DNA from: Leptolyngbya iicbica LK
Lineage (GTDB): Bacteria; Cyanobacteriota; Cyanobacteriia; Phormidesmidales; Phormidesmidaceae
DNA: 64,000 bases
Direction: 5' to 3'
NCBI RefSeq assembly: GCF_004212215.1
Contig: NZ_QVFV01000001.1
Span: 52,606 to 116,605, forward strand
Made by a program: the position numbers and the translations under genes. This document shows, piece by piece, positions 4,403 to 64,000 of the stretch (positions within the stretch are counted from its first letter, which is position 1; each line of letters starts with the position of its first letter). The notes beneath the pieces were generated by a model that worked only from the letters and a program-made list of their open reading frames with translations, was not told the DNA's origin and did no database searches.

Positions 4403-4428
4403 GGGCTGAGCGCTGGCAAGTGACGCCG

Positions 4429-5904
4429 CTAACGACCTTCGGTTGTCAGTGAGAACCCTGACTGACGACTTTGTTGGTAGTGCTGCAAACGCTGTTGCTG
4501 AGCGGCGATCGCCGGTTGATGTCCGATATCTTGCAAAATTGCCAGGGTCACCTGCTCGGCAGTTTCACAAGCCCCTTCCATATAGCCTTGGTAGCGACGA
4601 GAACAATGTTCTCCCGCAAAAAAGAGGTGCTCAGTACGCTGGCCTTCGAACCCATAAAATGCCGACCATTGCCCAACCTCGTAACAAGAGTAAGCGCCCG
4701 CTGAAAATGGATCCGTCAACCATTGGCTGCGGAGCCAGTCGGGCGTTAACTGTGCTGCGCAAATGCCGGGGAAAAGTTGAGCCAAATCAGCTTGCATCAT
4801 GGGCGCCAAATCCGCCAGGTCCAGTGTGGTGATCGCCTGTCCCGCAGCGCCCCCTGGATACGCCACCAGCAAGGCTATCTCGCTAGAGCGTAGGCTGTCA
4901 CAAGCTTCCCAGCAATGCTGCATCGCCAGATCGGTATAGGCCAACCCATTCAGCCCCTGCTGTCGCCACACTTTGGTGCGATAGGCGCTGATGACTTTGG
5001 TCGGCGTACTGTAACCCAATTGCTGAATCGCTTGCCGCTGCGAGGGGGGCAGGTCAACTTGTAGATCCAGGTGTCGCAACACGCTAAACGGCAACGTTAG
5101 CACCACCCGCCGATAGGAGCGATCGCGCACCGTTTGTCCCTGTCTCAGGGTCGCGACATATTGGCCATCGCGTCGAGCCGCTAAGGTTTCGAGTTGGGTA
5201 GCCAGCTGCACGCGATCGCCCACTGCCGCAAACAGTGCTTGGGGCAATTGAGCGTTGCCTCCTTGCAGGTAGTAGCGCTCGTCGCTGTTGCCAAACAACG
5301 ATTGACAATCCGCCGCCGACTTGAAATAGCTCAGCAAATTCAAACACGACTGGCGGGTGGAGTCCATGCCGTATTTGATGGTGTAGGCCGTCGTCAGTGC
5401 TTGATACAGCGATCGCGACACGCCATGTCGCGATAGGTAATCGGCGATCGATAGCGCATCTAAGGACTGGATGACCGGGGTACGCTCTCCCGTCTGTAAA
5501 AACTGCTGCACGGCCTGCCAGTCTTGCGGCTGTGCCCGTAGCAAAGCGGTGAACTCGGCCTGTATGGCCTGCGGATCGAGCCGCTGCTGCCCAAACCAAA
5601 ACAGGTCTTCGGCCCCGGCGTCCGCTTGCGACCACAGATCCACCACAGGTAGGCCGAGTTCTTGCGCGAGGGTGAGACAAGCCACATGGTCAGAGTCAAA
5701 GGCTTCGCCCCCCAACTCTGCCGTCAGCGAGGTGCCCAACGCATTCGTTACGCTGTGGATACGTCCGCCGGGGCGATCGCGGGCTTCCACAATGTCTACG
5801 TCGATACCAAATTGCTTTAACCTGTAGGCGGTGACCAAACCCGCCAAGCCAGCACCGACAATCAACGTCTCGGCTGGGGAAGCCACGGTCACAATTTCGG
5901 TCAT
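4429..5904 (-). CDS. FAD-dependent amine oxidase
   Basis: A 491-residue flavoprotein of the monoamine/polyamine oxidase family. Residues 14-45 form the dinucleotide-binding fold (LIVGAGLAGLVTAYRL, then DVDIVEARDRPGGRIHS, the family RxGGR motif). Near the C-terminus LFFAGEHCSRRYQGYMEGACETAEQV is the second FAD motif. It would oxidise an amine to an aldehyde or imine with release of H2O2; the substrate cannot be read from the sequence. It is divergent from the spermidine biosynthesis operon beginning at 6147, with about 240 bp between, so a polyamine substrate is a reasonable inference. Related enzymes also include L-amino acid oxidases and carotenoid desaturases, so the family call is firmer than the substrate. 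Confidence 0.85.
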   Translation of the reverse strand: MTEIVTVASPAETLIVGAGLAGLVTAYRLKQFGIDVDIVEARDRPGGRIHSVTNALGTSLTAELGGEAFDSDHVACLTLAQELGLPVVDLWSQADAGAEDLFWFGQQRLDPQAIQAEFTALLRAQPQDWQAVQQFLQTGERTPVIQSLDALSIADYLSRHGVSRSLYQALTTAYTIKYGMDSTRQSCLNLLSYFKSAADCQSLFGNSDERYYLQGGNAQLPQALFAAVGDRVQLATQLETLAARRDGQYVATLRQGQTVRDRSYRRVVLTLPFSVLRHLDLQVDLPPSQRQAIQQLGYSTPTKVISAYRTKVWRQQGLNGLAYTDLAMQHCWEACDSLRSSEIALLVAYPGGAAGQAITTLDLADLAPMMQADLAQLFPGICAAQLTPDWLRSQWLTDPFSAGAYSCYEVGQWSAFYGFEGQRTEHLFFAGEHCSRRYQGYMEGACETAEQVTLAILQDIGHQPAIAAQQQRLQHYQQSRQSGFSLTTEGR

Positions 5905-16844: not shown

Positions 16845-17215
16845 TGGGGGCGGAGGGACTTGAACCCTCACGACCTTAACGGTCAACGGATTTTCATCCT
16901 CCCGCAGCTTTCGCTGCTGCCAAAGGGGTCGCACAGGACTGCCCTTGGCTTTGAGAATTGGACCCTCCCTTTACCCTCGCCGCTAGCGTTAGGGTAGCTC
17001 CCGTCGGGCCTCTGCACCTTCCAACTCGGTCTGTCTGGCAGATGGTTTGAGTTGGCTTGGCTCAGGATTGCCTTGTCCTCAGCGGCACTGAGCGCAACTG
17101 CGCGGGCCAAGAGAGGATTTAGGTTTCCCTGAGTTTGAGAGCTTCCACTCAACAGATTTCTCCACTGAGGCTCAGTTTTCTAAGTCCGTAGCGTCTACCA
17201 TTCCGCCACGCCCCC
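16845..17215 (-). tRNA. trnL-UAA: tRNA-Leu(UAA), interrupted by a group I intron
   Basis: On the minus strand the 5' exon runs 17215-17182 (GGGGGCGTGG acceptor and D arm, ending CGGACTT at anticodon base 34). The 3' exon runs 16894-16845 (AAAATCCGT, a long variable arm, GGTTCAAGTCC T arm, CGCCCCC acceptor and discriminator A). Joined, they form a 7-bp acceptor stem (GGGGGCG/CGCCCCC), the anticodon loop CTTAAAA with anticodon UAA, and an 84-nt class II tRNA. The CCA end is not encoded. The split between anticodon bases 34 and 35 is the position used by the cyanobacterial and plastid trnL intron. Confidence 0.96.
16895..17181 (-). ncRNA. Self-splicing group I intron in trnL-UAA
   Basis: A 287-nt insertion at the U|AA anticodon site. 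It ends with G at 16895 just before the 3' exon (the terminal omega-G), and the 5' exon ends with U, as required for the U-G splice-site pair. There is no homing endonuclease frame inside; small open frames across it (16770-16997, 16883-17152) are chance. The size is within the range of cyanobacterial trnL introns. Splicing as an autocatalytic IC3-type intron is known for the family, not shown here. Confidence 0.93.
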
Positions 17216-49779: not shown

Positions 49780-50322
49780 GTCAGAATCTGACTCTTTGCT
49801 CCGTCACGGGCCTGAGGAGATGTCAGCAGGGCGCCCGACGATGGCTTTCCTCGCGTTAACTTAGCCGCAGATGGCTGATTAATCCTGGGTTTGAGTAACT
49901 TGCTCAACTTTCCAAACGGCTCATCGTTCTCACTAACAGGCATTCTTTCTCAGTCACCCCTTTGACTAACGAAGACTATCCGAACCTCACTTCCCTGCCG
50001 ATGGCGCATGGGACACCAAGCGGGGTTATATGGGTGACCTCAAGTTTTGGCATCCTCCTACCCAGCCTAAAATTACAGTTTTAGATTGACTGGGCGATCA
50101 AAGGTGGCAATAACGATCGCACTTTTCACGTTATTGATAGCGATCGCTTCATCCCCTGCATCTTGGGGAGTTGCCGCAAACGGATTTCCGTACTGATAGC
50201 TGGGCTTAAGAATTCGGCGCAAATTTCTATACTGAAATAGTGTGTGATTGGTCCGGTATCTGGCAAGAGTCTCCATGAGCGACTGAGCCGACGCCCCGCA
50301 GTGATTGGAAGGAGCAGCAAAG
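49780..50322. other. Intergenic region before the two-module membrane protein
   Basis: 540 bp. Open frames on the minus strand (49740-49943, 50073-50333) do not resemble proteins. GGAAGGAG at about 50307-50314 is the ribosome site of the next gene. No clear terminator for the flippase. Confidence 0.5.
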
Positions 50323-51666
50323 ATGGCCCACAATACCGCTGTTATGACAGCCGTTGAGTCGCTAAACTACCGCGTTACCGTAGGGGATGTGGCGGCCCAG
50401 TCTGGCTTAGAGTTGGCAGTGGCCCAGCAGGGGTTGAATGCGTTAGCGGCCGATACCCAGGCCCACTTGCAAGTGTCGGACGCTGGCGAAATCGCGTACG
50501 AATTTCCAAAAAGTTTTCGGGCGATTCTCCGCAACAAGTATTGGCGTTTGCGTTTGCAGGAAACTTGGGAACGCATTTGGGGTGTCCTGTTTTATCTCAT
50601 TCGGATTTCCTTTGGCATTCTGCTGATCCTCTCGATTTTGGTCATTGTGGCGGCAATTATTATTTTGGTGATTGCGGCTCAGAGCGCTTCTCAGAAAGAC
50701 GACGATCGCGGCGGCGGGGGTGGTTTTGGCGGCGGCATGGTCTTTTTGCCTCGCTTCTGGATGGGTGATTTATTTTGGCTGTTTCACTACGACCCTTATT
50801 ACAGTCGCCGTTCGACGACTCGTCGGGCGTCACGGCCCAACCGCCAAGGCCGCTCTGATGATGAGATGAACTTTTTGGAAGCCGTCTTTTCTTTCCTCTT
50901 TGGGGACGGTGATCCCAACGCTGATTTAGAAGAACGTCGTTGGCGAGAAGTGGGTGCCGTCATTCAAAACAATGGTGGAGCGATCGCCGCTGAGCAGGCG
51001 GTACCTTACTTAGACGACTTGGGCAAAGGCTGGGCACAAGAAGACGAGGACTATATTTTGCCGGTACTGACCCGCTTTAATGGGGTTCCCGAGGTCAGTC
51101 CAAAGGGCGAGATTATTTATCACTTTCCTGAATTGCAGGTGACGGCTAAAGAGCGAGGCCGCATCTCCGTACCGGCTTATCTCAAAGAGACGCCCCAAAA
51201 ATTTAGCGAGGCCAAGTTAGGCCAACTATCGGGAGCCATCGCGTTGGGGATCTTTAACTTTTTGGGCGCGATCGTGCTCGGCTTTATGCTGCAAGACCAG
51301 GCGTTAGTCGCCGAAATTGGTGGCTTTATCGGGTTTGTCAACGCCATTTATTGGTTGATTTTGGCCTATGGCACCGGATTTTTAGCCATTCCGGCCATTC
51401 GCTACTTTTGGGTGAAACGCAAGAATAGTCGCATTGAGCATCGCAACGAACAGCGCCAAGAGCGGGCATTAGCGCTGAATGCAGCAGGGCCAGAGCTCGA
51501 TGAAAAAATCGCCTTTGCCCAGCAGTTTGCCGCCCAAACCGTAGTCTCGGCGGACGATTTGGCCTACACCACGGCTAAGGAACTCACGGAACAGGAATAC
51601 GAGCAGCGTGAAAAGCTGGATGCTGAGTGGCAAAAACGCCTTGACGCCTCTGATGACGTGACTTGA
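50323..51666 (+). CDS. Cyanobacterial membrane protein with two similar winged-helix-like modules
   Basis: A 447-residue protein. Module 1 (residues 10-65, ESLNYRVTVGDVAAQSGLELAVAQQGLNALAADT, then SDAGEIAYEFPKSF) and module 2 (about 205-275, IQNNGGAIAAEQAVPYLDD, then SPKGEIIYHFPELQ) look like the same fold: a winged-helix-like unit ending GEIxYxFP. They flank one transmembrane helix (VLFYLIRISFGILLILSILVIVAAIIILVI) and a Gly-rich linker; two further helices lie at about 305-365. Similar proteins occur, I believe, in other cyanobacteria, with no assigned function. ATG 50323 is preferred to TTG 50305 because GGAAGGAG precedes it. It ends 120 bp before hypE; no functional link seen. Confidence 0.78.
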   Translation: MAHNTAVMTAVESLNYRVTVGDVAAQSGLELAVAQQGLNALAADTQAHLQVSDAGEIAYEFPKSFRAILRNKYWRLRLQETWERIWGVLFYLIRISFGILLILSILVIVAAIIILVIAAQSASQKDDDRGGGGGFGGGMVFLPRFWMGDLFWLFHYDPYYSRRSTTRRASRPNRQGRSDDEMNFLEAVFSFLFGDGDPNADLEERRWREVGAVIQNNGGAIAAEQAVPYLDDLGKGWAQEDEDYILPVLTRFNGVPEVSPKGEIIYHFPELQVTAKERGRISVPAYLKETPQKFSEAKLGQLSGAIALGIFNFLGAIVLGFMLQDQALVAEIGGFIGFVNAIYWLILAYGTGFLAIPAIRYFWVKRKNSRIEHRNEQRQERALALNAAGPELDEKIAFAQQFAAQTVVSADDLAYTTAKELTEQEYEQREKLDAEWQKRLDASDDVT

Positions 51667-51786
51667 TCAGACAGGGCGCGGCCCCTTTAGATGGGATAAC
51701 TGAGGGCGATCGCGGCTCCACTCTGCCTCGTTAAATTAACCTGTATTTATCTCCAGCCCGTCTCAGGTTGCCTTTAGCCTGTGGGC

Positions 51787-52845
51787 ATGACTATCTCTTC
51801 CTCCGCGCGGGCCAAACTGCCCCGCCTGCGAGACAAAACCATTACCCTGGCCCATGGCAGCGGCGGTCAAGCCATGCAGGATTTGATTGCGGCGCTGTTT
51901 GTCAGCCAGTTTGAAGGGCAGCTACCGACGGCGCTGGAAGATCAGGCCCGCATTCCGTTGGCTGAATTGACAGCGCAGGGCGATCGCCTCGCTTTCACGA
52001 CCGATTCTTATGTGGTGGACCCGCTGTTCTTTCCCGGAGGCGATATTGGCTCATTAGCGGTCAACGGCACGGTGAACGATCTGGCCGTGAGTGGGGCAGT
52101 GCCGCGATATCTCACCTGCGCCATGATTTTGGAAGAAGGCTTGCCCATTGACGTCTTAAAGCAAGTGGTGGCCAGTATGGTGACCGCCGCCCAGCAAGCT
52201 GGGGTCAAAATCGTCACTGGCGACACCAAGGTAGTCCCAAGGGGGGGGGCCGATAAGCTCTTTATCAATACCGCTGGGGTGGGGGTGATGCGACGTGGCG
52301 TGACGCCCGCAGCAGTACATATTCAGCCGGGGGATGCGGTGCTAGTCAACGGCCCCATTGGCAACCACGGGGCAACGATTTTAGTGGCGCGTGAGCAGTT
52401 TGCCCTAGAAACGGAAATTCACAGCGACTGCCAGCCCTTGAACGGATTGGTGGACGCGATCGTCACCGCTTGTCCAGCCGTGCGGGCCATGCGCGACGCG
52501 ACGCGAGGGGGCCTGGCGACCGTGTTGAATGAGTTTGCTGAGAGTGCGCAGGTGGGCATTCGCCTGATTGAAGATGACCTTCCCGTGGATGAGGCCGTGC
52601 GCGGGCTCTGCGAACTGCTGGGCCTGGACCCGCTGTATTTGGCGAATGAAGGGAAATTGGTGGTAGTGGTGCCGCCGGATCAGGCCGATACCGTGCTGGC
52701 GGCGATGCAGACGCACCCTGCCGGGGTTCACAGTCGCGTCATTGGCCATGTCATCGATGGTCAGCGAGTGGCGTTAAAAACAGGATTTGGCACCGATCGC
52801 ATCCTTGATCGCCTTGTCGGTGACCAGCTACCGAGGATTTGCTAA
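51787..52845 (+). CDS. hypE: Hydrogenase maturation protein HypE
   Basis: A 352-residue PurM/ThiL-fold enzyme. With HypF it dehydrates a thiocarbamoyl group on its own C-terminal Cys to provide the cyanide ligands of the NiFe centre. The C-terminus is the expected PRIC. TDSYVVDPLFFPGGDIGSLAVNGTVNDLAVSGA is the ATP-binding N-terminal motif, and DATRGGLATVLNEFA the PurM signature. An upstream GTG at 51781 is an alternative start. The TAA stop overlaps the hypA ATG (TAATG). hypF, hypC and hypD are not in this window, nor is a hydrogenase. Confidence 0.95.
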   Translation: MTISSSARAKLPRLRDKTITLAHGSGGQAMQDLIAALFVSQFEGQLPTALEDQARIPLAELTAQGDRLAFTTDSYVVDPLFFPGGDIGSLAVNGTVNDLAVSGAVPRYLTCAMILEEGLPIDVLKQVVASMVTAAQQAGVKIVTGDTKVVPRGGADKLFINTAGVGVMRRGVTPAAVHIQPGDAVLVNGPIGNHGATILVAREQFALETEIHSDCQPLNGLVDAIVTACPAVRAMRDATRGGLATVLNEFAESAQVGIRLIEDDLPVDEAVRGLCELLGLDPLYLANEGKLVVVVPPDQADTVLAAMQTHPAGVHSRVIGHVIDGQRVALKTGFGTDRILDRLVGDQLPRIC

Positions 52846-53186
52846 TGCATGAATTTGCCATTACGCAAAACATTGTGGAGATCGCCACTGAACACGCCGA
52901 AGGGGCTGCCGTGCGCCGCATCAGCCTGGAAATTGGGCAACTCACCGCCATCATGCCGGATGCTATCGCCTTTTGCTTTGACGTCTGCGCCCAGGGCACG
53001 CTGTTAGAGGGCGCCACGCTAGAGATTATCCAGCGACCTGGACGCGGCCAGTGTCAAGACTGCGGACGAGAAATTCCCCTTGAGCAACCCTTTGGCGTTT
53101 GTGACTGCGGTTGCACCCACCTCACCATCATTCAAGGCGAAGAACTCACGATTAAAGAATTGGAAACGGAGGCCCTATGTGCGTAA
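52845..53186 (+). CDS. hypA: Nickel chaperone HypA
   Basis: A 113-residue nickel and zinc protein. The N-terminal MHE (His2 is the nickel ligand) and the zinc-binding pairs CQDCGREIPLEQPFGVCDCG at about residues 68-88 are intact, so both metal sites should work. It hands nickel to the hydrogenase large subunit together with HypB. ATG 52845 is the last base of the hypE stop; the last 10 bp overlap hypB. An upstream in-frame TTG at 52839 is rejected because it would displace the MHE motif. Confidence 0.95.
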   Translation: MHEFAITQNIVEIATEHAEGAAVRRISLEIGQLTAIMPDAIAFCFDVCAQGTLLEGATLEIIQRPGRGQCQDCGREIPLEQPFGVCDCGCTHLTIIQGEELTIKELETEALCA

Positions 53187-54097
53187 CCTGTGGCTGCTCC
53201 GATGGGGCACAAGCAACCTATACCCGACCGGGCGCAGCGACGACTGGCGCGACGGAGTCCCCTAGCCATAGCCATGTGTTGGCCGATGGGACGGTGGTCA
53301 CCCACAGCCATGATGAGCACGACCATGCCCCTCACGAGCACGCCCATCATGGCAATGGTCATCATCAGGTCAGTCACCCAGCGATCGCGATCCCCGCAGC
53401 CTCCCAACCATCGGCCGAGACCCATGCGCTGGCCCACGGCACGACTCTAACGCTGGAGCAAAATCTACTCGCGAAAAACGATCGCCTCGCCACCCAAAAT
53501 CGCGACTGGTTTAGGGCTCACAGCATTACGGCGCTGAATCTCGTGAGTTCACCCGGAGCGGGCAAAACGACCCTGCTCGTGCGGACGATCGCTGACCTGC
53601 AAGCAGAAATCCCCATCACGGTGATTGAAGGCGATCAGGAAACCGCCAACGATGCCGAACGCATCGCGGCGACCGGCTGCCCGACCATTCAAGTGAATAC
53701 CGGGACAGGCTGCCACCTCGAAGCCGCCATGATCGATCGCGGCCTGCAAGCCCTCAATCCTCCGGACCATTCCCTCGTACTGATTGAAAATGTCGGCAAT
53801 CTCGTCTGTCCTGCCCTGTTTGATTTGGGCGAACACGCTAAAGTCGCGATGCTCTCCGTCACCGAAGGCGAAGACAAACCGCTGAAATATCCCCACATGT
53901 TTCGCGCCAGCCAGGTGATGGTGCTAACCAAAATTGATTTGCTGCCCTACGTCAATTTTGATGTGCAGCGCTGTCTCGATTATGCCCGTCAGGTCAATCC
54001 TCAATTGCGCATCTTTCAAGTCTCAGCCACTACGGGCGCTGGCTTAGCCGACTGGTATGACTGGCTTAAAGCGACGGTGCAGAGCGCTGAGGCTTAG
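53177..54097 (+). CDS. hypB: Nickel-inserting GTPase HypB
   Basis: A 306-residue SIMIBI-class GTPase. The N-terminus MCVTCGCSDG carries a CxxCGC nickel site. A His-rich region of about 70 residues (HSHVLADGTVVTHSHDEHDHAPHEHAHHGNGHHQ) can store nickel. The GTPase motifs are SSPGAGKTTLLVRTI (G1), VIEGDQETANDAERI, IENVGNLVCPALFDLGEH and VMVLTKIDLLPY (G4). GGAGG lies five bases before the ATG. It is the last gene of hypE-hypA-hypB. The long His tail is typical of hydrogenase-linked cyanobacterial HypB. Confidence 0.95.
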   Translation: MCVTCGCSDGAQATYTRPGAATTGATESPSHSHVLADGTVVTHSHDEHDHAPHEHAHHGNGHHQVSHPAIAIPAASQPSAETHALAHGTTLTLEQNLLAKNDRLATQNRDWFRAHSITALNLVSSPGAGKTTLLVRTIADLQAEIPITVIEGDQETANDAERIAATGCPTIQVNTGTGCHLEAAMIDRGLQALNPPDHSLVLIENVGNLVCPALFDLGEHAKVAMLSVTEGEDKPLKYPHMFRASQVMVLTKIDLLPYVNFDVQRCLDYARQVNPQLRIFQVSATTGAGLADWYDWLKATVQSAEA

Positions 54098-54392
54098 CTG
54101 GCGAGCCTGATAACCAAAGAGATAAAGGCTGCTCACACACACCGCCAGGACCTCAAGAGTCTAGCGGCGCGAAGGCACCATCGTCCAATATTTTGGTGGT
54201 TTTTGGCGATCGCCCCCCCAAGCGCTCTGAGCAAAAATTTCAACAATTTTTATCGCGTTCATCCCGATGCTCAATATTTAGTTGGGAAGGGTAAATGCTG
54301 GCTGAATCAGTTTCCGAGTCTACAGCGACAAACCTGACCACTCGGCGGCGCTCAGACAGCAATGTTGCCAGTTAACAGGACTTTGATGAGCT

Positions 54393-54812
54393 ATGAACGC
54401 TTGCACCAAAGCTGCCATATTCACGGTGGGTTCGACGGTTTCTTTTTCGATGATGAACGCTGGGGCTCATGCTCAATCGACGGGCACAGCCGCCGATTTG
54501 TTGCCGCTAGATAACCACGGCGTCTCGATGGATACTTTGCCCGATCAACTGAAAGCGGTGGGCCAAGTCAGCGCACATGTCAAACCTGAAGCCACCTACA
54601 GTCCTGAGATGCTGAATGCCGTGGCCAGCAATATCAACCATACCAACCAGCCGAGTCCAGAAGATCATGCCCCTAACCTGGGTGACATCGTAGATCTGGG
54701 CTTTGTTGAACAATTCATCGATGAAGATGGCAATGTTGACTTGCCTCTAGGCATCACCGTTTATGAAGCCATGGGCCAAACCTCGATTGGATTTGGCCTC
54801 GAATTTCGCTAG
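54393..54812 (+). CDS. Small secreted protein of unknown function
   Basis: A 139-residue protein with a probable signal peptide (MNACTKAAIFTVGSTVSFSMMNAGAHAQ). The mature part is acidic, without cysteines or recognised domains, and ends LPLGITVYEAMGQTSIGFGLEFR, which looks like a beta-hairpin with a terminal aromatic-x-Arg. I do not recognise the family. It stands alone between hypB and the riboswitch-controlled symporter. Confidence 0.55.
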   Translation: MNACTKAAIFTVGSTVSFSMMNAGAHAQSTGTAADLLPLDNHGVSMDTLPDQLKAVGQVSAHVKPEATYSPEMLNAVASNINHTNQPSPEDHAPNLGDIVDLGFVEQFIDEDGNVDLPLGITVYEAMGQTSIGFGLEFR

Positions 54813-55199
54813 TCAATTGTCAACAGAACCAGCGAGGCGAATAGTCAAATAACGAGACTCGCAGTGAAATTCCCCAATCGTAGCAACGGTTGTGGGCCAT
54901 CAAAGGTCCAGAATTTGGCCCGAATTGCTCGTCAGACTGCGGATATTTAAACTGCTGTTGACGGGTAGCGATCGCTCGCCAGCGAAATCCCCTAAACCCC
55001 AATGTCATGCAATCAAAACATTCCGGCAGCAAGCGTATCAGCAACTACTAAACATTAATTGATTTGCTGTTAAAAACCGTTTATTGAGCTTGCAATATAG
55101 CTTGCTTGGGAAATCGATGATTTCTGCTTTCGCAGATAAGTCTAGAAGTCTTATTTTTATACGCCAGAAGTTTTTGGTGTGCAGAAAAATTGAAGAACT
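54813..55199. other. Intergenic region upstream of the riboswitch
   Basis: About 390 bp. The promoter for the symporter transcript should lie near 55080-55190, where the DNA becomes AT-rich. A HIP1-like site occurs at about 54968. Nothing else recognisable. Confidence 0.5.
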
Positions 55200-55310
55200 T
55201 AGCGTCTAGGGTTCCGGCTTGGTTGATTTAACAAGTGTCTGGTCCGAGAGATGCAGTTAGGCTTTTGTTAATCAAGCCTAATTCACGGAGGGATAAAAGC
55301 CCGGGAGGAA
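55200..55310 (+). promoter_or_regulatory. Guanidine-I (ykkC) riboswitch aptamer
   Basis: The conserved sequence blocks of the guanidine-I class occur in order: CTAGGGTTCCGG (55206-55217), CTGGTCCGAGAG (55239-55250), and CACGGAGGGATAAAAGCCCGGGAGG (55285-55308, allowing for one base). Between the last two, TTAGGCTT pairs with AAGCCTAA (P2-type hairpin). This class binds guanidinium and turns on the downstream gene. The downstream gene is an SSS-family symporter at 55417. This is pattern recognition by eye; covariance search is needed for exact limits. Confidence 0.88.
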
Positions 55311-55352
55311 TGGGTCAACTTAAGTTGACTTGCTGTTCTGTTCCCGGGCTTT
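55296..55352 (+). terminator. Riboswitch expression platform: hairpin overlapping the aptamer
   Basis: AAAGCCCGGGA (55296-55306, the 3' end of the aptamer) pairs perfectly with TCCCGGGCTTT (55342-55352). Inside the loop a 16-bp palindrome (GTCAACTTAAGTTGAC, 55314-55329) gives a second hairpin. Because the 5' strand belongs to the aptamer, ligand binding would prevent this stem, as in guanidine-ON switches. The T-run after it is weak, so the exact mechanism (termination or another) is uncertain. Confidence 0.7.
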
Positions 55353-55416
55353 GCTGTATTTAAATGCTCAATTTCAAAGCTGCTAATTTTGACTCTAGCT
55401 CTAGGAGACGAAGAGC

Positions 55417-56919
55417 ATGGAAAATACTGCATTTTCGTGGGGAATTATCACATTTCTCCTCGGTACTTTAGGCATTGGGGTCTGGGCCTCACAACAAATT
55501 AAAGGGGATAGCGTTAACTTTTTAGTCGCTGGTAGAGGGTTGGCATTACCCTTGGCGGGCGCGACTTTGATGGCTCAATCGGTTGATTCTAATGCCACTT
55601 TGGGGAATACCGATCTTTCTTCTGAATTTGGCTTTTGGGCGGGGGCAGCCCTGCCAGTGGGCCTGTCTTTATGTCTGCTGCTAACGGGCTTATTTTTAGC
55701 CAAACCCATGAACCGCATGGGGCTCATCACCATTCCAGATTTTTATCGCGTGAAATATGGGCGCACGGTAGAGCTGCTGGCAGCCTGCATTATGACCGTC
55801 AGCTTTTCCTTTTTGCTGGCGGGTAATTTGGTGGCTGGCGGCTTTATGTTTGAAAACTTTTTGGGGTTGAGCTACTTCGGCGGTATCACCCTGTTAGCGG
55901 TGTTGGTGTTTGCTTACACGGTGTCTGGGGGGCTGTTTGCGGTCGCCTACACCGATTTTATTCAAGTCTTTATTGCGCTACTCGGCGCTTGGGGGCTGTT
56001 GCTTTATGTCTTATTTAACTTTGGCATCGATATTGCGCCTGGCATGGGGCCTTTGGGCTTTGAGCAATTAACGTCGGTGGGGTCGGGCGCAGCGATTAAC
56101 TGGGCCAGCATTATTGCCCTGGGCTTTGGCAACATGGTGGCGATTGATTTTATGGCCCGTATTTTTGCGGCAGAGAGTCCCAAGACAGCTCAACGAGCTT
56201 GCTTTGTAGCGTCTTTAGGCACTCTGATTGTGGGCATTCCGTTCTCCGTTCTGGCGTTGGGGGCAGGCGGTATTTTTGCCCAAGCTGGCGTCACGGCAGA
56301 TGGCCCTGTGCTCTTTGCCTTGCTGGAAAATGTGGTGCCACCCGTGTTGGGTTTGTTGGTGTTGGCGGCGATTTTGTCGGCATCGTTATCCACAGCGGAT
56401 GGGGCCATTTTGGGCACGTCTTCGGTGTTAGCGCATAACGTATTGGGGATTCGCCATGCGTCAGCCCATGATGCGAGCGGGGGCGATCGCCTGTTGCTCA
56501 TCACCCGGTTAATGGCGATCGTCATTACTATATTGGGGGTCTTTTTGGGCCTGCGGGTGCCCCAGACCGGCGTGCTCCTGCTGCTGGCGTTTGATATGAG
56601 TTTTGCGGGCTTGGTCGTGCCTTTGATTGGGGGGCTTTATTGGGCTCGTTCAACGCGGCAGGGGGCACTGGCCTGCATCATTGTCGGTTCGCTTACCCGC
56701 TTTGCTTTTTTCATTTTTATGCCGACGATGTTTGGCGTCGACAACACGCTGCTATATATTCCCAACAGTTTGTTCACGATCGACTTTGATGGGTTTCCCA
56801 CGCTGATTAGTCCGATTGTGGGACTCGTGGCATTTTGGGTGGTGTCAAATCTGACCTACCGGCCTCAAAGTCCGGAAGAGCAACGGGCCAAAGTCTTGGA
56901 GAAGACTCAGGCCCTGTAG
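55417..56919 (+). CDS. Sodium:solute symporter under guanidine riboswitch control
   Basis: A 500-residue integral membrane protein of the SSS family with about 13 hydrophobic segments. The SSS signature appears as FLVAGRGLALPLAGATLMAQSVDSNATLGNTDLSSEFGFWAGAALP and in the later YTVSGGLFAVAYTDFIQVFIALLGAW; SASLSTADGAILGTSSVLAHNVLG is the sodium-site helix 8. It most likely couples sodium entry to solute uptake. The guanidine-I riboswitch in its leader suggests that the solute is guanidine, a guanidino compound or a breakdown product; this is inference. AGGAG is at 55396-55403 region, ten bases before the ATG. It is followed by a HIP1-based terminator. Confidence 0.88.
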   Translation: MENTAFSWGIITFLLGTLGIGVWASQQIKGDSVNFLVAGRGLALPLAGATLMAQSVDSNATLGNTDLSSEFGFWAGAALPVGLSLCLLLTGLFLAKPMNRMGLITIPDFYRVKYGRTVELLAACIMTVSFSFLLAGNLVAGGFMFENFLGLSYFGGITLLAVLVFAYTVSGGLFAVAYTDFIQVFIALLGAWGLLLYVLFNFGIDIAPGMGPLGFEQLTSVGSGAAINWASIIALGFGNMVAIDFMARIFAAESPKTAQRACFVASLGTLIVGIPFSVLALGAGGIFAQAGVTADGPVLFALLENVVPPVLGLLVLAAILSASLSTADGAILGTSSVLAHNVLGIRHASAHDASGGDRLLLITRLMAIVITILGVFLGLRVPQTGVLLLLAFDMSFAGLVVPLIGGLYWARSTRQGALACIIVGSLTRFAFFIFMPTMFGVDNTLLYIPNSLFTIDFDGFPTLISPIVGLVAFWVVSNLTYRPQSPEEQRAKVLEKTQAL

Positions 56920-56946
56920 CCAACCTCACGGGAATTGCCTCCACTG

Positions 56947-56981
56947 CCGCGATCGCTCTCAACCAGGAGCGATCGCGGTTT
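56947..56981. terminator. Bidirectional terminator built on HIP1 sites
   Basis: CCGCGATCGCTC pairs with GAGCGATCGCGG (12 bp, perfect) around TCAACCAG, followed by TTTCG. Both stem arms contain a GCGATCGC palindrome. It lies between the convergent symporter and cheB genes. Confidence 0.75.
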
Positions 56982-57021
56982 CGTATTGGGGAGCTGGAGC
57001 CCTGAACCGCCTTATCAGGGG

Positions 57022-58110
57022 CTAAAAATTTTGGAGAGCGGAGGCAAACACGCGATTGAGTAAAAAGGGCGCGATGTTGTCGATGGGCAAAATATGCTGC
57101 GCTGCGTTCAAGGCGATCGCTTCTTTCGGCATGCCAAACACGACACAGGTGGCTTCGTCTTGGGCGATGGTGGTGCCCCCCGCGAGGGCGATCGCGTGTA
57201 AGCCTTCAGCGCCATCGCGACCCATCCCCGTCAACACGATGCCCACAGCCGAGCGGCGATAGTATGCCGCTACCGACTCCAGCAGTACCGTCACCGAAGG
57301 ACAATGCCCCGCCACCGGGGGCGACTGCGTGAGCTCAAACCGACCGTAGCGATCAATCTGCATGTGATGTCGCTCGGGGGGAAAGTAGACCGTACCAGGG
57401 GCGGGCATTTCTCCGGCCACGGCAATTTTGATGTGCAACGCACTTTTGAGATTGAGCCAATCAATCAGTCCTTGCAAAAAGCCGCTGCTGATGTGCTGCA
57501 CACATAAAATCGGCACCGGAAACTGTTTGGGCAAGGCTTGCAAGATGGTCTGCAGCGCCTGTGGCCCCCCAGTCGAAGCCCCAATCGCCAGCACGCGGGG
57601 GGCGCGAATATCAAGTTGATGGGAGGCCGCGATCGCCGATGCTGGCGGCGGGGGCGGCAGTGGGGTGGGACGCACCTCGCGCCGGTGCTGGGTAAACACT
57701 GACACGCCCGAGAGTACGCGAATTTTGTTGATCAGCTCCTGCTGAACTTTTTCATATTCAGCCGCCAGCCCCGTACGCGGCTTGGGAAAAATGTCGAGGG
57801 CGCCTGCTTCCAGCAGGCGAAACACATTTTGCGTGTCTTCGTCTTGTACTGATGCGCTCACCACTAAAATCGGGCGGGGGAAACGGGCCATCACCTCACG
57901 GGTCAGGGTCAGGCCGTCCATTTTGGGCATGTGCAGATCGGTACAGATAATCTGCGGATCGACCTGGGGAATCAGCTGCAGCGCCTCAACGCCGTTAGCG
58001 GCAATCCCCACAATTTCGATCGCCGGATGGTCGCGCAGCAGCCGCTGCAAAATCGCCAGCGCAACGGGCGAATCTTCCACCAATAACAGCCGAATCGGGC
58101 GCGATGCCAT
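57022..58110 (-). CDS. cheB: Chemotaxis protein-glutamate methylesterase CheB
   Basis: A 362-residue response regulator. Residues 1-125 are a receiver domain (RLLLVEDSPVALAILQRLL with the acidic pair, LQLIPQVDPQIICTDLHMPKMDG with the phospho-Asp, and VVSASVQDE). Residues 165-360 are the methylesterase: catalytic Ser in GASTGGPQALQTIL, His in CVQHISSGF and Asp in LTGMGRDGAEGL. It removes methyl groups from chemoreceptors. It begins directly after the cheA stop (no gap). No cheR is in the window; it may lie beyond the right end. Confidence 0.96.
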   Translation of the reverse strand: MASRPIRLLLVEDSPVALAILQRLLRDHPAIEIVGIAANGVEALQLIPQVDPQIICTDLHMPKMDGLTLTREVMARFPRPILVVSASVQDEDTQNVFRLLEAGALDIFPKPRTGLAAEYEKVQQELINKIRVLSGVSVFTQHRREVRPTPLPPPPPASAIAASHQLDIRAPRVLAIGASTGGPQALQTILQALPKQFPVPILCVQHISSGFLQGLIDWLNLKSALHIKIAVAGEMPAPGTVYFPPERHHMQIDRYGRFELTQSPPVAGHCPSVTVLLESVAAYYRRSAVGIVLTGMGRDGAEGLHAIALAGGTTIAQDEATCVVFGMPKEAIALNAAQHILPIDNIAPFLLNRVFASALQNF

Positions 58111-60990
58111 CTAGATCAGCCTCTGTAAAGTTTCGAGGAGAACTTCTTGGTTGAAACTGCCTTTGGTGATGTATGCATTGGCCCCAGCCTCTGCCCCTCG
58201 TTGGCGATCGCGATCGCTCGCCAAGGTCGTCACCAACACCACGGGCAACTCATTATATTCGCGGTGCTGGCGAATGCGTTCGGTCAGCCCGAGGCCATCT
58301 AAATTCGGCATTTGCACGTCCGAAACCACCGCGTCAAACGCCTGTAGCTGTAACTTGTTAAAGCCCTCCATCCCGTCCACAGCGGTGACCACCTGGTAGC
58401 CCGCCGCTTCGAGAATGCGCTTTTCTTGGGTGCGGGTGGCGATGGAATCTTCGACCAACAAAATGCGGGCCGGACGTTCTGGCGCTTGCTGGGGCATGGC
58501 GGTGGCGGTGGCAGCCAAGCCCGGACGACTGCTGCGTCGCCGCACCGATTGCATCAAATCCTGGGGGTTAAGCACCATACAGACCTCCCCCGTCCCGAGA
58601 ATCGTCGCCCCGGAAATGTTGCGCACCCGCTTCAATAGCTGGCTTTGGGGCTTGAGCACAACATCTTGTTCATCGACCAGCGCATCGACAAAAATGCCCA
58701 AACTGTCTGCCCCCGATCGCAAAATAATGCAGGCGAGGGAGGGTGACTGCCGACGGGCGATCGGGACCTTGCTGGGGGCCAGTTCGAGCAGGTCGGAGAG
58801 CTGCACCACCGAAATGGGACGATCGTCGTGCAGGATGGTGTTGCGTCCTTCAATGGTGAAAATGTCGTCCGGCTTCACCAGACAAGCCGTTTGCACAAAC
58901 TCTACCGGAATGGCATAGGTGTTGTTGCTCACCGACACAATCAGCACGTGAGCCGTGGCCAGAGTCGTGCCCAACTGGACTCGAATAGTGCAGCCTTGCC
59001 CCGGTTCTGAGCTGACCTCAATACTCCCCTTGAGCCGTTCCACATTGGTTCGCAACACGTCGAGCCCGACCCCGCGCCCCGAAATTTCCGTCACCATGGT
59101 GCGGGTCGAAAATCCCGGACTCAAAATCAAGTTTTGAATCTGCCCCGGCGTCATCGATTCCAGCTCTTCGGGTCGGCAAATGCCCCGACGCAGCGCCGTT
59201 TGCTTAATCGCTTCCACATTGAGTCCGCGCCCATCATCACTCACCTCAATCACGATGCTGGTGGGGGTTTGATAGCCGCGCAGGGTGATGGTGGCCGTTT
59301 CCGGTTTACCCTGACGCACCCGCTCTTCTGGGGACTCAATGCCATGATCGATCGCATTGCGAATCATGTGCAGCAGCGGATCCTTCATCTCTTCGAGGAT
59401 GCGCTTATCGGCACGGGTGTCGGCCCCAGCGATCGCCAGCTTGACGGACTTGTGTTCTTGACGCGCCAGATCGCGCACCAAGCGGGGATACAGATTAAAA
59501 ATGGTCGAGAGGGGCAGCAGGCGCAGGGTCCGAATGCCTTCTTCTAACTCACCGCTGATCATCTCCAGGCGGGTAGTGTCTTCGTACAGAGATCCCTGCA
59601 AGCGATTGATCAGGGTGCCGAGCTGTTCGAGATATTGCTCATTGCGGTGTTGAAAGGTTTCTAATTGATGAATGCCTTTGCGCCCTTGCTGCACCTCATG
59701 GAGCAAAAAGCGATGGGAAAAGAGATCGCGGCTCCAATCTTCCCAAAGGTTGCTGATTTCTTCGATTTCGCCCAGCCGATGGGTGACACGAATTTTGGTG
59801 ACCGTGAGTTCCCCCGTTTGGGTCATCAGGGCATCGAGGTTATGGGTCGGCACCCGAATGGTCTCAATGCGGTAAGCCGCTGACGGTGCCCCCCCGGCCG
59901 TCGAGTCGGCAGGCGGTGGCGGGTTCGCAGTGGCCGCCCTGTTAGCCGCGGGCGGTGCGCTACCGTTGGTGGACTCTGGCGCTGGCGTGGAGGACTCAGG
60001 AGGCACTGGTTTCGGAGCGGCGATCGCAACCGCTGCCGAATTGAGGTCGACCGGGACATCAGCGTTCGGGGCGGCGGTCGCAGGCACGCTAGCCCCCATC
60101 AGTTCGGCCAACACGTAAAACACATTCACATGAGCTGGTATCCCCGTCACGGCTTGGTGGGCCAGCTGGCGCATGGCGTCTAAACCGTGGGCGAGGCGAT
60201 CGCCCATATCTGGCGAAAAGCGCTCTTCGTGCCGTTGAATCGCCCCGAGCAGATGCTCTAACTGGTGCGCCAGGGTGCCCAAATCTTTGAGGCCCAGCAT
60301 ATTGCTGTCCCCTTTGAGGGAATGCGCCTCGCGCATCAGCAAGTCGAGGGTGACGGTGTCCTCGGGCTGCTGTTCGAGCTGCAAGAGGCCCGTATCTAAA
60401 GCCTGCAACCGTTCTTCACTGCTGGTTTTAAAGATGGCCCGCAGCTCAGCATCGGCAATCAGCAAATCGGTGTCGGTGTCGGTGTTGGGATCAGTGTCGG
60501 TATCCACCAGCGCAGCCGGAGCCGCCTCCGCCTCATCGTCTTCGGCCATTTCCCCAAAGAGTTCGACCCCATCGGGCTCAGACTCAGGGGGGGCTAGCGG
60601 AGCGGCAGGCAGCGGCGTGCCGTTCATCGCGGCGATCGCCCGCTCGGCGGTCGCATCACACGGGTCACCCGTCACCGCATGGTGAATCATTTGCCGCATC
60701 GCCGCGAGTCCTTGGGCGAGGCGATCGCCCAACTCTGCCGTAAAGGCTTGCTCACCCCGCTGCACCTGCTTCAAAATCGTTTCCAGAGAATGGGCGACTT
60801 TGCCAATTTCCGGTTGATCGAGCATACTGCTGTCGCCCTTGAGCGAGTGCGCCTCGCGCATCAGGCTATCGAGCGTGTCAGCATCATCTGGCTGCTGTTC
60901 TAGGTGCAGCAGTCCCGCGTCCAAGGTCTGCAACCGTTCTTCACTGGAGGTTTTATAAATGCCTCGCAGTTCATCATCTTCAATCCTCAT
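58111..60990 (-). CDS. cheA: Hybrid CheA histidine kinase with two Hpt domains and a receiver
   Basis: A 959-residue kinase. Two phosphotransfer domains carry HSLKGDSSML (His48) and HSLKGDSNML (His223), highly similar to each other. A Pro/Ala linker with a DTDTDPNTDTDTD patch joins them. The kinase core has HMIRNAIDHGIESPEER (N box), VSDDGRGLNVEAIKQTALR (G1) and GRGVGLDVLRTNVERLKGSIEV (G2), then a CheW domain (AHVLIVSVSNNTYAIPVEFVQT) and a C-terminal receiver (ARILLVEDSIATRTQEKRIL, VVSDVQMPNLDG). The receiver, and CheB downstream, fit the hybrid CheA type used in non-flagellar systems. ATG 60990 has AAGGG upstream; ATG 61032 is less likely. The last gene pair is fused without a gap. Confidence 0.95.
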   Translation of the reverse strand: MRIEDDELRGIYKTSSEERLQTLDAGLLHLEQQPDDADTLDSLMREAHSLKGDSSMLDQPEIGKVAHSLETILKQVQRGEQAFTAELGDRLAQGLAAMRQMIHHAVTGDPCDATAERAIAAMNGTPLPAAPLAPPESEPDGVELFGEMAEDDEAEAAPAALVDTDTDPNTDTDTDLLIADAELRAIFKTSSEERLQALDTGLLQLEQQPEDTVTLDLLMREAHSLKGDSNMLGLKDLGTLAHQLEHLLGAIQRHEERFSPDMGDRLAHGLDAMRQLAHQAVTGIPAHVNVFYVLAELMGASVPATAAPNADVPVDLNSAAVAIAAPKPVPPESSTPAPESTNGSAPPAANRAATANPPPPADSTAGGAPSAAYRIETIRVPTHNLDALMTQTGELTVTKIRVTHRLGEIEEISNLWEDWSRDLFSHRFLLHEVQQGRKGIHQLETFQHRNEQYLEQLGTLINRLQGSLYEDTTRLEMISGELEEGIRTLRLLPLSTIFNLYPRLVRDLARQEHKSVKLAIAGADTRADKRILEEMKDPLLHMIRNAIDHGIESPEERVRQGKPETATITLRGYQTPTSIVIEVSDDGRGLNVEAIKQTALRRGICRPEELESMTPGQIQNLILSPGFSTRTMVTEISGRGVGLDVLRTNVERLKGSIEVSSEPGQGCTIRVQLGTTLATAHVLIVSVSNNTYAIPVEFVQTACLVKPDDIFTIEGRNTILHDDRPISVVQLSDLLELAPSKVPIARRQSPSLACIILRSGADSLGIFVDALVDEQDVVLKPQSQLLKRVRNISGATILGTGEVCMVLNPQDLMQSVRRRSSRPGLAATATAMPQQAPERPARILLVEDSIATRTQEKRILEAAGYQVVTAVDGMEGFNKLQLQAFDAVVSDVQMPNLDGLGLTERIRQHREYNELPVVLVTTLASDRDRQRGAEAGANAYITKGSFNQEVLLETLQRLI

Positions 60991-61068
60991 GGCATATCCC
61001 TTCTCTCGCTCGCAATATGGGCACCCATACAAATCCCTGATTGAGGCCGGTCAAACCAGCGGGTGTGA

Positions 61069-62532
61069 CTAGATCGCGACCTTGAGCTGCATCGCGGATT
61101 CATTGAGTTGATGGGTGCCGGTGCGAATCTGGGTGATGCCGCTGGCCGTTTCCTGAGCGCCTTTGTTTAAGTTATTCATGGCGCTCACGACTTGCTCAAT
61201 GGCGACGGCTTGCTGCTTCACATTCAACGAAATTTGCTGACTATTCAGCACTACGTTGTTCACCGCATCGGCCACGCCACCAAAAGCGGCTGCCGTTTCT
61301 TCCGAAATCTTGACGCCCTCTTCCACGGTTTTGGTGCCTTCATCGGTCACCATCACGGTGGAATTGATCGCGGTTTGAATGTCGGCCACCAGCGCATTGA
61401 TTTTTTCCGCCGATTTTTTGCTCTGATCCGCCAGTTTGCGAATTTCGCCCGAAACCACCGCAAAGCCCTTGCCATGTTCACCCGCGCGGACTGCTTCCAC
61501 CGCTGCATTCAGGGCCAGCATGTTGGTCTGGTTAGCCAGGTCACTCACCAGGCCCGAAATGCCGCCAATCTGGTTGGTTTGTTCACTGAGCCGCAGGATT
61601 TGATCGGCGATCGCCTCCACCTTTTCTCGCAACGTGCCCATGCCGGCCATACTGCGTTCTACCGCGCGGGTACCTTCTTCCGCCAGCTTCAGCGCTTGTT
61701 GCGCACCGGCTGCCGCCGCTTCGGCCTGCTCTGCCGACTGCCGCGACGACGCCCCCAGTTCATCCATCGTGGTCGTGGTCTCGCTGACCGAGGCCGCCTG
61801 TTGACTGCTGGTACGTTCCTGCTGCTCAATGCTGGCGGCAATCTCATTGGCCGAACTCGCAATCACCCCCGCCGACTGATTCATCAAGCGCGATGCCTTC
61901 AGCACAATCCAGGTGCCCAGCAGCACTGACACGAGCACCGAGATAGCGGCAGCGAGCAACAGCGTTGTCTGTAGCCGCCCTAAAGCCGCAGTTTGAGCAG
62001 CCTCGTCCCCAGCCATGATCTCATGCTCTAGAGTCTCCATGTCCAGCAACAGCGCACTGATGGATTCCGCTAAGCCCCGACCACCATCGGCTTTCCAAGC
62101 ATTGATTGCTTCTTCCGGCTGGCCCGCATCCACGAGCGCAATTAAACCTTCGTTCAAGGCAATCAATTCCGCCGTTTGGACCTCTAGCTCTTTCAGATTT
62201 TGCAGTTGTTGCTCATTAGTGATCCACTCTTCTGTCGTGGCCAAGACCTCGGTGTAAGCTTCCTTGGCGGCATTGAAGGAATTCAGCGACACCGGACTTT
62301 TTTCGAGCAGATAACCCCGGGTCGTACGCGACATGGCCTGAATATGAGAGTCGAGTTCGCCAATATTGTCATTGACTTCCCAGGAACTATGGAGTTCTGC
62401 TGCGCTGTGTCTGACCTGGCGCACGTTGGCAACGGTCACAGCCGCCGAGATCACTAAGGCCACGACAGGGACCGAGTATCCCAGAATGATCCAGTGGCGA
62501 AGTTTCCAAATTCGTTGGGCGCTAGCTTTCAT
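61069..62532 (-). CDS. Methyl-accepting chemotaxis protein with CHASE3-type sensor
   Basis: A 487-residue chemoreceptor. A transmembrane helix ([19 protein letters not shown]), a periplasmic four-helix region of about 135 residues ([31 protein letters not shown]3-like), a second helix ([21 protein letters not shown]), and the cytoplasmic coiled coil follow. The signalling tip is [41 protein letters not shown]; the common EAARAGE reads EAVRAGE. There is no HAMP domain. It signals to CheA through CheW. It is 78 bp upstream of cheA in the same operon. Confidence 0.93.
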
Positions 62533-62650
62533 GACGGTTCTCCTTAAGCGGATAGGGACTCAATAAATCAAATAGGGAAGTCGAGACTTGGAATAGTCGG
62601 TGCGGCCAGTCAGAGAACTTGAAAAAGCACTCCACTGGGGCAAGAGGGGA

Positions 62651-63673
62651 CTAAGCGGCTTGGTCAACCACTAACTCGCCGTGGGTCAGCAGTTGCGTAA
62701 TATCTAAAACGCTTATGGTCTGGCCGTTATCACGCACGACGCCGCGAATATAAGCATTGTCAGTAGCGTGAATGGCCGTGGGCACCGCCGTGACATCGCC
62801 AGGATGCACGTACAGCACATCGAACACCGCATCAACGATGATGCCGGCCACAATGTCATTCACCCGCACAATGACGGCTTGCTGTTGGCGCGTGCTAGCG
62901 GTGTCCAAATTGACGAACTGCCGAATATCAATCAGCGTCAAAATCTCACCGCGCAGATTCATATTGCCGACGATATGAGGGGGACAACAGGGCACCGGCG
63001 TCACCTGGGCAATTTGGGTAAATTCTTGAATCACTTCCAGGTTTAGGGCAAACCGCTCGCCTTGCAGACCCACAATGGCGAGGGCTGTGAGCCCCACCCA
63101 GCTCTCACTTTCGCTTTGGTTGATGAGCGCATCGGCCCGGTTTTGCAACACCGCTTGATCGGCGGCTGAAAACTGGGCTAAAAACTCGTTGCCCTCTATG
63201 TTCGCGTCTATCGGCTCAGGCCGAGCAGTTCCAGTGGCCATGGACGAGCCCTGCACAAGCGCTTCAGGATTAAGCAGGGTGATTAACTGAGAATCGTGCT
63301 TGGCTAATCCGGCTGTGACTGCATGTTCGGCATCAGTAGTGAGGTGACTCCCCACGTCGATCGCCAGTTCTGACTCGGCAATGAATTCGACGTTATCGAC
63401 CTCATCGACGATGACGCCAACCGATCGCTCATGCAGCCTGATTAAGATGACGGAATGTTTGAGCGTATAGGGTTGTCGCGATCGCCCCAGTCGCTGCCGC
63501 AGGTCAATTACGGGAATGATGTGTCCCCGCAAATTGAGAATGCCCACCATTTCGGCAGTGGCTTCGGCAATGGGCGTCAGCGCCGGTAATAGAAACAGTT
63601 CTTGCACAACTGCGGCGGCAATGCCAAAGCGACTGCCGCTTAACCCAAAGATTAGGTAGGGTTGATATGCCAT
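62651..63673 (-). CDS. Double-CheW-domain adaptor protein
   Basis: A 340-residue protein with two CheW domains in tandem (about 1-140 and 195-335). YLIFGLSGSRFGIAAAVVQELFLL with MVGILNLRGHIIPVIDLRQRLG form the first, and ALAIVGLQGERFALNLEVIQEF with IVGNMNLRGEILTLIDIRQFV form the second. It links receptor and kinase; two domains could bridge two partners. ATG 63673 has AGGTGG five bases upstream and is preferred to ATG 63727. It is 118 bp ahead of the receptor gene and the first of the operon in view. Confidence 0.9.
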   Translation of the reverse strand: MAYQPYLIFGLSGSRFGIAAAVVQELFLLPALTPIAEATAEMVGILNLRGHIIPVIDLRQRLGRSRQPYTLKHSVILIRLHERSVGVIVDEVDNVEFIAESELAIDVGSHLTTDAEHAVTAGLAKHDSQLITLLNPEALVQGSSMATGTARPEPIDANIEGNEFLAQFSAADQAVLQNRADALINQSESESWVGLTALAIVGLQGERFALNLEVIQEFTQIAQVTPVPCCPPHIVGNMNLRGEILTLIDIRQFVNLDTASTRQQQAVIVRVNDIVAGIIVDAVFDVLYVHPGDVTAVPTAIHATDNAYIRGVVRDNGQTISVLDITQLLTHGELVVDQAA

Positions 63674-64000
63674 AAAGCCCACCTGCTGAAACAATGTCGC
63701 AAAATTAGCCCCAGCAGCGATCGCCATTATTGGCGATCAGTCAGTGATTAAGGACTAACTATACTTGCAGGCTTATCATTCCCTAAGCCAACAACAAGAC
63801 GGAGAATCAACACAAAAGTCAATTTTCTTGCAAACAACTTTACTCAACAAGGACAGGAAATAAGTGAGCCTTTTAAAATACCTCCCGTCCAACCTTCGCG
63901 ATCGTCAGGGCACAGCACTTGTCATCACATTTTCTTCCTGGTTGACATTCCATTATGCTTTCAATTTCAATTTATTTTGGCGGCGACTGAGAGGAAGCTA

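Follow-up and report, generated by a model that had tools for sequence, protein, structure and literature searches.

A guanidine-I riboswitch and a candidate sodium-coupled guanidinium importer in the cyanobacterium Leptolyngbya iicbica LK

A stretch of 64,000 nucleotides from Leptolyngbya iicbica LK (contig NZ_QVFV01000001.1, positions 52,606 to 116,605, forward strand), called the window here, carries a guanidine-I (ykkC-type) riboswitch aptamer at 55195..55309 (+) and, as the sole gene below it, a gene at 55417..56919 (+) for a protein of 500 amino acids of the sodium:solute symporter (SSS) family. It is likely, in our assessment, that the two form a single-gene guanidine-uptake unit, in which a Na+-coupled guanidinium importer is controlled by NtcA and by the riboswitch and feeds a guanidinase. 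Nitrogen shortage would lead NtcA to activate transcription, as suggested by a conserved box upstream. When guanidine is lacking, the 3' end of the aptamer would, judging from its anatomy, pair with a downstream arm and transcription would stop; with guanidine bound, the aptamer would retain its 3' strand and the symporter would be made, which is consistent with both the anatomy and the reported ON behaviour. The symporter would then import guanidinium on the Na+ gradient, and a guanidinase encoded elsewhere in the genome, its function assigned by homology, would hydrolyse guanidine to urea and ammonium. The symporter is taken as a candidate guanidine importer because many of its relatives share operons with guanidinase and HypA/HypB-like genes and one adjoins guanidine carboxylase genes; for its substrate, this comparative genomics amounts to strong inference, not proof.

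Guanidine-I riboswitches and guanidinase operons with importers of the ATP-binding cassette (ABC) or amino acid-polyamine-organocation (APC) type are already known. The guanidine-I class is reported to allow transcription only with guanidine (PMC11410670, PMC11477304). ABC and APC importer candidates for guanidine have been described, and ykkC was reported before ABC genes and before potE (PMC2211319). A 2025 paper states that there are no studies on guanidine importers (PMC12508155). No SSS symporter under a guanidine riboswitch was found in the available parts of the literature, including PMC12625717; the gene tables of the papers on the guanidine-I ligand (2017), GdmH (2022) and the NtcA regulon (2017) may list such an association. 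The RNA motif TIGR03647 precedes a solute/sodium symporter gene, with no guanidine link in the portion of that paper available (PMC6429828), and the string 'guanidin' occurs 0 times in the available text of a review of the SSS family (PMC7918813).

Riboswitch and competing hairpin

The RNA upstream of the symporter gene, to which the conserved block CTGGTCCGAGAG belongs, matched the Guanidine-I model RF00442 over the full aptamer (model positions 1-107) with 86.3 bits against a curated cut-off of 63 (E-value 4.9e-14; cmscan of the window, Rfam 15), and a chance match was rejected on these values. The original prediction, which was made from the DNA letters, had assigned the RNA to this class and had proposed the Rfam covariance model as a check; the significant match at 55195-55309 (+) bears it out, with the aptamer beginning 5 bases before the predicted start. 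Other RNA families were rejected as well, since a permissive scan of 55000-55500 brought none near its own cut-off (the runner-up had 21 bits against 47).

As had also been predicted, the 3' end of the aptamer takes part in a competing hairpin. The aptamer end AAAGCCCGGGA (55296-55306) is the perfect 11-bp complement of 55342-55352, and the resulting terminator-like hairpin (55296..55352, +) encloses an inner hairpin, GTCAACTTAAGTTGAC, so that the platform competing with the aptamer 3' end that marks the guanidine-I class is present. A complement of this length was equalled by 0 of 200 mononucleotide shuffles of the 110 nucleotides (nt) downstream; folded in isolation, the hairpin has an energy of -32.7 kcal/mol (z -6.5), and 0 of 200 shuffles were as good. 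In 30 of 44 riboswitch copies, 7 or more bases of the aptamer tail are perfectly complementary to a stretch within 110 nt downstream, G-U pairs excluded; 6 further copies have a 6-base complement only and 8 have none of 6 or more. For 20 of the 44 copies, no more than 5% of 200 shuffles gave a complement as long as the real one; for the others, the length lies within chance by this measure. RNA folding did not recover the known structure of the aptamer, either alone (z -0.7) or in the whole leader, and therefore no switching energetics are claimed.

The symporter

The protein scored 117.3 bits against PF00474 (cut-off 22.8), which confirms the SSS symporter that had been predicted as the controlled gene. 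The known subfamilies PutP, PanF and ActP were rejected, as none of the NCBIfam subfamily cut-offs was passed (TIGR02121, 100.7 against 515.5 bits; TIGR02119, 83 against 328; TIGR02711, 39 against 1099). A structure was modelled with AlphaFold2 from 41 sequences, namely the window protein and 40 of its 80 relatives described below, hand-chosen for spread; the model has a predicted local distance difference test score (pLDDT) of 85.5 and a predicted template modelling score (pTM) of 0.86, and supersedes a poor one made from 6 sequences (pLDDT 39.8). In comparisons with VIA-align, the top fold was human CHT1 (9bim; Z 46.5, 464 residues, 2.9 A, 24% identity), followed by SiaT, SGLT, NIS and DUR3, and the best entries of CHT1, SiaT, SGLT, NIS, DUR3 and vSGLT ranged from Z 28 to 46.5, placing the model within the SSS fold. 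Choline transporters also came first in the sequence searches, CHT1 being among the nearest solved sequences.

Residues A322, S325 and T326 align with A, S and T of PutP and are identical in 81 of 81 aligned rows; these positions are presumably the Na2 site. D57 is kept in all 79 rows that reach that position and D244 in 81 of 81. At position 57, PutP, ActP and the two other SSS proteins of the genome have S, S, S and G, and at 244 they have H, H, E and A, the alignments of these four being loose around position 244. N59, T61, N64 and D66 are also kept, partly by construction, as they lie within a motif used in the scan for relatives, and they are common to six symporters from a whole-protein search too; D393 is present in one SSS paralogue of the same genome as well. 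LeuT-fold carriers bind their substrates at helix discontinuities. The helices of the model break at 56-57 and 242, which puts D57 and D244 at or beside the breaks, and two carboxylates in such a position would suit guanidinium.

The guanidinase operon of the same genome

One further RF00442 match (74 bits) was found in the genome (5.72 Mb, 16 contigs). It heads an operon at G000:C2 (locus L045; L and G numbers denote loci and genomes) with gdmH, a HypA-like gene, a type III glutamine synthetase gene, a HypB-like gene and the binding protein, permease and ATPase of an ABC importer, the ABC parts being named by eye. The GdmH protein of this operon scored 833 bits to the solved Synechocystis enzyme (7esr/7oi1), 582 to the solved Nitrospira guanidinase (9fek) and 173 to the next ureohydrolase, and is inferred by homology to be a guanidinase. 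NCBIfam labels it an agmatinase, barely above the cut-off (177.6 against 174.3), with no guanidinase model among the matches listed. The genome thus holds gdmH under the same class of riboswitch as the symporter. The original prediction that no hydrolase neighbours the symporter stood for the annotated part of the window, 50000-64000, where none was seen among the open reading frames (ORFs) and a nearby hydrolase was therefore rejected; it did not extend to the genome, given the guanidinase at the second riboswitch.

The glutamine synthetase gene (L045 4635-6080, -; TIGR03105, 579 bits, cut-off 469.6) stands between the two chaperone-like genes of the operon and possibly serves to capture the released ammonium. 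GdmH is a nickel enzyme, yet the gdmH operon has its own HypA/HypB-like genes. A hypE-hypA-hypB set lies directly upstream of the riboswitch unit in the window (51781-54097, +), a neighbourhood kept in L059. These genes were rejected as the chaperones of the gdmH operon, since they are a hydrogenase maturation set and HypA/HypB-like genes are found at G000:C2.

Occurrence and gene neighbourhoods of the relatives

Relatives of the symporter were collected by an alignment scan of named genome contigs; 80 of the 162 found were analysed. The scan demanded one of two short motifs (ATLMAQSV or NAT[LM]GN[TM]D) and says nothing of the wider family. The loci were sorted from tblastn neighbours and a riboswitch model, R1, which was built from 23 riboswitch copies, 6 of them in loci then searched, and which replaced a hand-made pattern that missed many copies. 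L084, L089 and L097 are the same contigs as G070, G213 and G159 of the phylum sample below.

A guanidine-I riboswitch stands directly before the symporter in 23 of the 80 loci, 19 of them plain and four with a divergent gdmH (two cyanobacteria and two Mycobacteriaceae). In a further 13 the order is riboswitch, gdmH and, further on, symporter; these are ten cyanobacteria, two actinobacterial metagenome-assembled genomes (MAGs) and one MAG labelled Chloroflexaceae. Taken together, the symporter is directly under the riboswitch or behind a riboswitch and gdmH in 36 of 80 loci. gdmH occurs without a riboswitch in four (two with the order gdmH-symporter, in one of which, L135, the contig starts inside gdmH, and two with a divergent gdmH), and guanidine carboxylase genes lie beside the symporter in one (Streptomyces regalis, L134). 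The R1 scores behind the direct riboswitch calls at L069 and L070 are weak (31 and 38 bits), and at the Rfam gathering threshold no riboswitch was found in 16 re-checked loci, including L069 and the Streptomyces locus. In L071, L072 and L078 there are two back-to-back guanidine-I riboswitches. The first serves the symporter; the second points in the opposite direction and heads gdmH in L071 and L078.

The same association was seen at the level of whole genomes. In a sample of 386 genomes of the phylum, RF00442 was found in 120, gdmH in 58 and the symporter (E <= 1e-60) in 6; all six symporter genomes have gdmH, for which a random draw would give a probability of about 9e-6 (calculated by hand, relatedness ignored), and five of the six have RF00442. 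Of the five symporter genomes besides that of the window, G011, G070 and G170 share the order riboswitch, gdmH, HypA-like, HypB-like, symporter, with two more genes after gdmH in G070. In G159 the symporter and the riboswitch-gdmH unit lie on separate contigs, and in G213 no riboswitch was found. The loci led to 49 further genomes with the symporter, three of them also in the phylum sample (L065 was outside the whole-genome search); of these 49, gdmH was found in 44 and RF00442 in 42 (38 over threshold).

An ABC binding protein sharing 50% identity or more with that of the Leptolyngbya genome was counted by hand in 23 of 52 genomes, and many genomes thus possess both types of importer. A search for the binding protein at E 1e-30 returned nothing in G170 or in G011, whose single contig is listed as 100% complete, and the symporter of the gdmH operon is therefore the only importer candidate seen there.

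In a tree of 76 symporters and PutP, the riboswitch-symporter and riboswitch-gdmH-symporter arrangements need 3 changes, against a shuffled mean of 9.5; the root was not used, PutP being on a very long branch, and L081, L090, L098, L119 and L132 were left out for stops or short length. By its symporter, the window genome is nearest to Leptolyngbya/Halomicronema. These neighbourhoods support the suggestion, already made in the original prediction, that the protein is a candidate transporter of guanidine or a guanidino compound.

Nitrogen control

An NtcA-type box, GTATCAGCAACTAC, which matches the consensus GTAN8TAC given for NtcA (PMC12282138), lies at 55035..55048 (+), 160 nt before the aptamer and 22 nt before TAAAAA (55071-55076), a possible, inexact -10 element. 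With five matches in the window against 3.1 expected, the single match is not significant alone. The box recurs, however, in related leaders: an exact box was found within 250 nt upstream in 30 of 37 riboswitch leaders, where resampled sequence would give 1.8. A plain shuffle over 300 nt gave an expectation of 3.3, and random windows of the same loci had the box in 14 of 631. Six of the seven leaders without an exact box have a one-mismatch box, a figure for which there was no control. The 37 leaders are of cyanobacterial type, some of them close relatives, and include the window, the gdmH leader of its genome and the MAG labelled Chloroflexaceae; excluded were four actinobacterial copies, three oriented away from the symporter, and L084, which duplicates L042.

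The box lies at -57 to -64 in the gdmH operons (two at -83/-84) and mostly at -114 to -165 before single symporters. NtcA-activated promoters have a -10 hexamer, TAN3T, that follows the box at a distance of about 22 nt. A strict TAN3T 19-25 nt after the box was found in 12 of the 37 leaders (0.3 expected), the hexamer of the window being inexact. Other guanidine-I leaders were compared: in two sets of the same class the box was found in 9 of 14 and 0 of 7 leaders, and in the other class in 3 of 23, against 0.7, 0.04 and 0.9 expected, respectively. The box is thus not general to guanidine-I leaders, and control by nitrogen plus guanidine may apply to a part of the cyanobacteria. The 9 boxes in the first set (L046-L058) precede ABC, carboxylase and gdmH operons. 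The Synechocystis operon sll1077-1082 has been reported to be repressed by ammonium (PMC10094980), which fits nitrogen control.

Comparison with known systems

The Synechocystis operon sll1077-1082 (GdmH, GhaA, GhaB and an ABC importer) combines riboswitch, guanidinase, HypA/HypB-like chaperones and importer (PMC8390497, PMC10094980), as does L045 of the window genome. The importer candidate described here differs in being an SSS symporter, alone under the riboswitch in the window or in an operon without ABC genes in L040-L042. In Nitrospira inopinata, a riboswitch, a permease of the APC superfamily and a guanidinase occur together (PMC11410670), and that permease is likewise an ATP-independent importer candidate under guanidine-I control; by family label, the carrier of the window differs in belonging to PF00474/SSS. 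Human CHT1 (SLC5A7), the high-affinity choline transporter, is the top fold match and an organic-cation carrier, but has G and A where the symporter clade has D57 and D244. E. coli PutP, a proline:Na+ symporter, shares the SSS family and the A, S and T at window-protein positions 322, 325 and 326, and differs in its substrate and in the residues aligned with D57 (S) and D244 (H).

Alternative explanations

Several observations weigh against the uptake unit proposed above. The tract TTTGCTGTATTT directly 3' of the hairpin is a poor U tract and would make a weak classical terminator. Near the first helix break (residues 51-70), the pLDDT of the symporter model falls to about 70. In 13 of 80 loci, neither a riboswitch nor a partner enzyme was found in the DNA stretch examined; gdmH is present elsewhere in the genome for 11 of the 12 bacterial loci among them, and for the twelfth (Hydrocoleum, L102) neither gdmH nor RF00442 was found in the genome searched. 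The genome of the window also has an ABC importer, to which the symporter is either redundant or of different affinity. The remaining points concern operons with extra genes, which may handle more than plain guanidine, and the haloarchaeal relatives, which may carry something other than guanidine.

These last points bear on a rival view, in which guanidine is only the inducer and the compound taken up is a different guanidino compound (methylguanidine, agmatine, guanidinobutyrate, creatine, etc.). We consider this unlikely. In 26 of 27 haloarchaeal loci, the symporter (52-58% identity) lies beside a ureohydrolase (35-37%), and 26 of 26 of these enzymes have Glu (GTGEPEPGG) where the motifs of 25 of 25 bacterial guanidinases have Trp (GTGWPEPGG). 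This Trp probably corresponds to an active-site residue considered in work on the solved enzymes (PMC11410670), an equivalence drawn from the motif. The best solved matches of the haloarchaeal enzyme are GdmH (4.9e-58) and, not far below, guanidinobutyrase (5.5e-48). Because Glu replaces Trp, the haloarchaeal substrate may not be guanidine, and a single substrate for the whole clade cannot be assumed. Methylguanidine, moreover, can enter the guanidine pathway in Vreelandella (PMC12508155). ORFs were found between gdmH and the HypA-like gene in five of the seven gdmH-symporter operons examined for them, encoding a methyltransferase (PF08241; L042, L076, L094) and/or a glutathione transferase (PF02798/PF00043; L042, L085, L094, L095); the Pfam assignments come from the L042 genes (4393-5892, +), and the gap genes of the other loci were judged alike by eye. 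The seven operons are a subset of all gdmH-symporter operons, and two of them, L080 and L088, have no gap ORF of 80 amino acids or more; L040 and L041 have no extra gap genes either. In bacteria, the partner of the symporter is the guanidinase itself, mostly with its chaperones, which speaks against another guanidino compound.

Some side observations were made at these loci. In haloarchaea (L105-L133, e.g. L117 8986-12984), symporter and Glu-type ureohydrolase recur together without a riboswitch; several loci add a gene with an AbrB/MazE-like domain (PF04014 in L117), and urease- or urea-transporter-like genes were seen by eye in L105 and L107. A glutamine riboswitch (RF01739, 57.1 bits; L042 9063-9138, -) lies just downstream of the gdmH-symporter operon of L042, on the opposite strand.

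Less probable still is a role in urea transport, in which the symporter would scavenge or release what the guanidinase produces. The urea symporter DUR3 is an SSS member of the same fold (9vim_B, Z 32.4), and Sll1077 (GdmH) has been reported to release urea (PMC8390497). The profile of the symporter is, however, far closer to CHT1 (about 1e-36) than to DUR3 (7e-6), its two conserved aspartates would be a better match for a cation than for the neutral urea molecule, and in three gdmH operons it occupies the place of the ABC importer genes. In Streptomyces regalis (L134), it accompanies genes of the carboxylase pathway, which ends in ammonia via allophanate (PMC12186494).

It is very improbable that the protein is an exporter that relieves guanidine toxicity, although many genes under guanidine riboswitches encode exporters (PMC12186494): the gene recurs beside assimilation enzymes, and a box of the nitrogen-starvation type is more in keeping with feeding than with detoxification. 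Import is, moreover, the normal direction for SSS carriers that retain the Na2 site. The chance that the RNA is a ykkC relative for another ligand (ppGpp, PRPP or nucleotides), such relatives being known, is negligible in view of its RF00442 score, with no other family within reach, and of the sister copy that heads the guanidinase operon.

Other features of the window

The symporter gene is preceded by AGGAG at 55403-55407 (+), read by eye, and followed by a terminator-like inverted repeat of 14 pairs at 56946..56979 (+), found in a consensus scan that gave 7 such sites in the region against 3.8 expected. The next gene is CheB-like and lies on the opposite strand, so that the unit looks monocistronic. 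At 16942-17191 (-) there is a Group I intron (RF00028, 62.9 bits), around which ARAGORN found no tRNA; perhaps the intron interrupts a tRNA, hence none was found.

Implications

Beyond the window, we lean towards the view that the SSS clade marked by D57 and D244 comprises Na+-coupled guanidinium carriers in cyanobacteria and actinobacteria, that its haloarchaeal cousins move a guanidino compound, and that in cyanobacteria NtcA and the guanidine-I riboswitch act together as an AND gate. The symporter is a Na+-driven, single-gene candidate for which CHT1 offers a clear structural template, and its expression and assay should be simpler than those of an ABC complex. If the conserved NtcA box is a true control element, guanidine would be a food for these organisms under nitrogen hunger and not only a poison for export.

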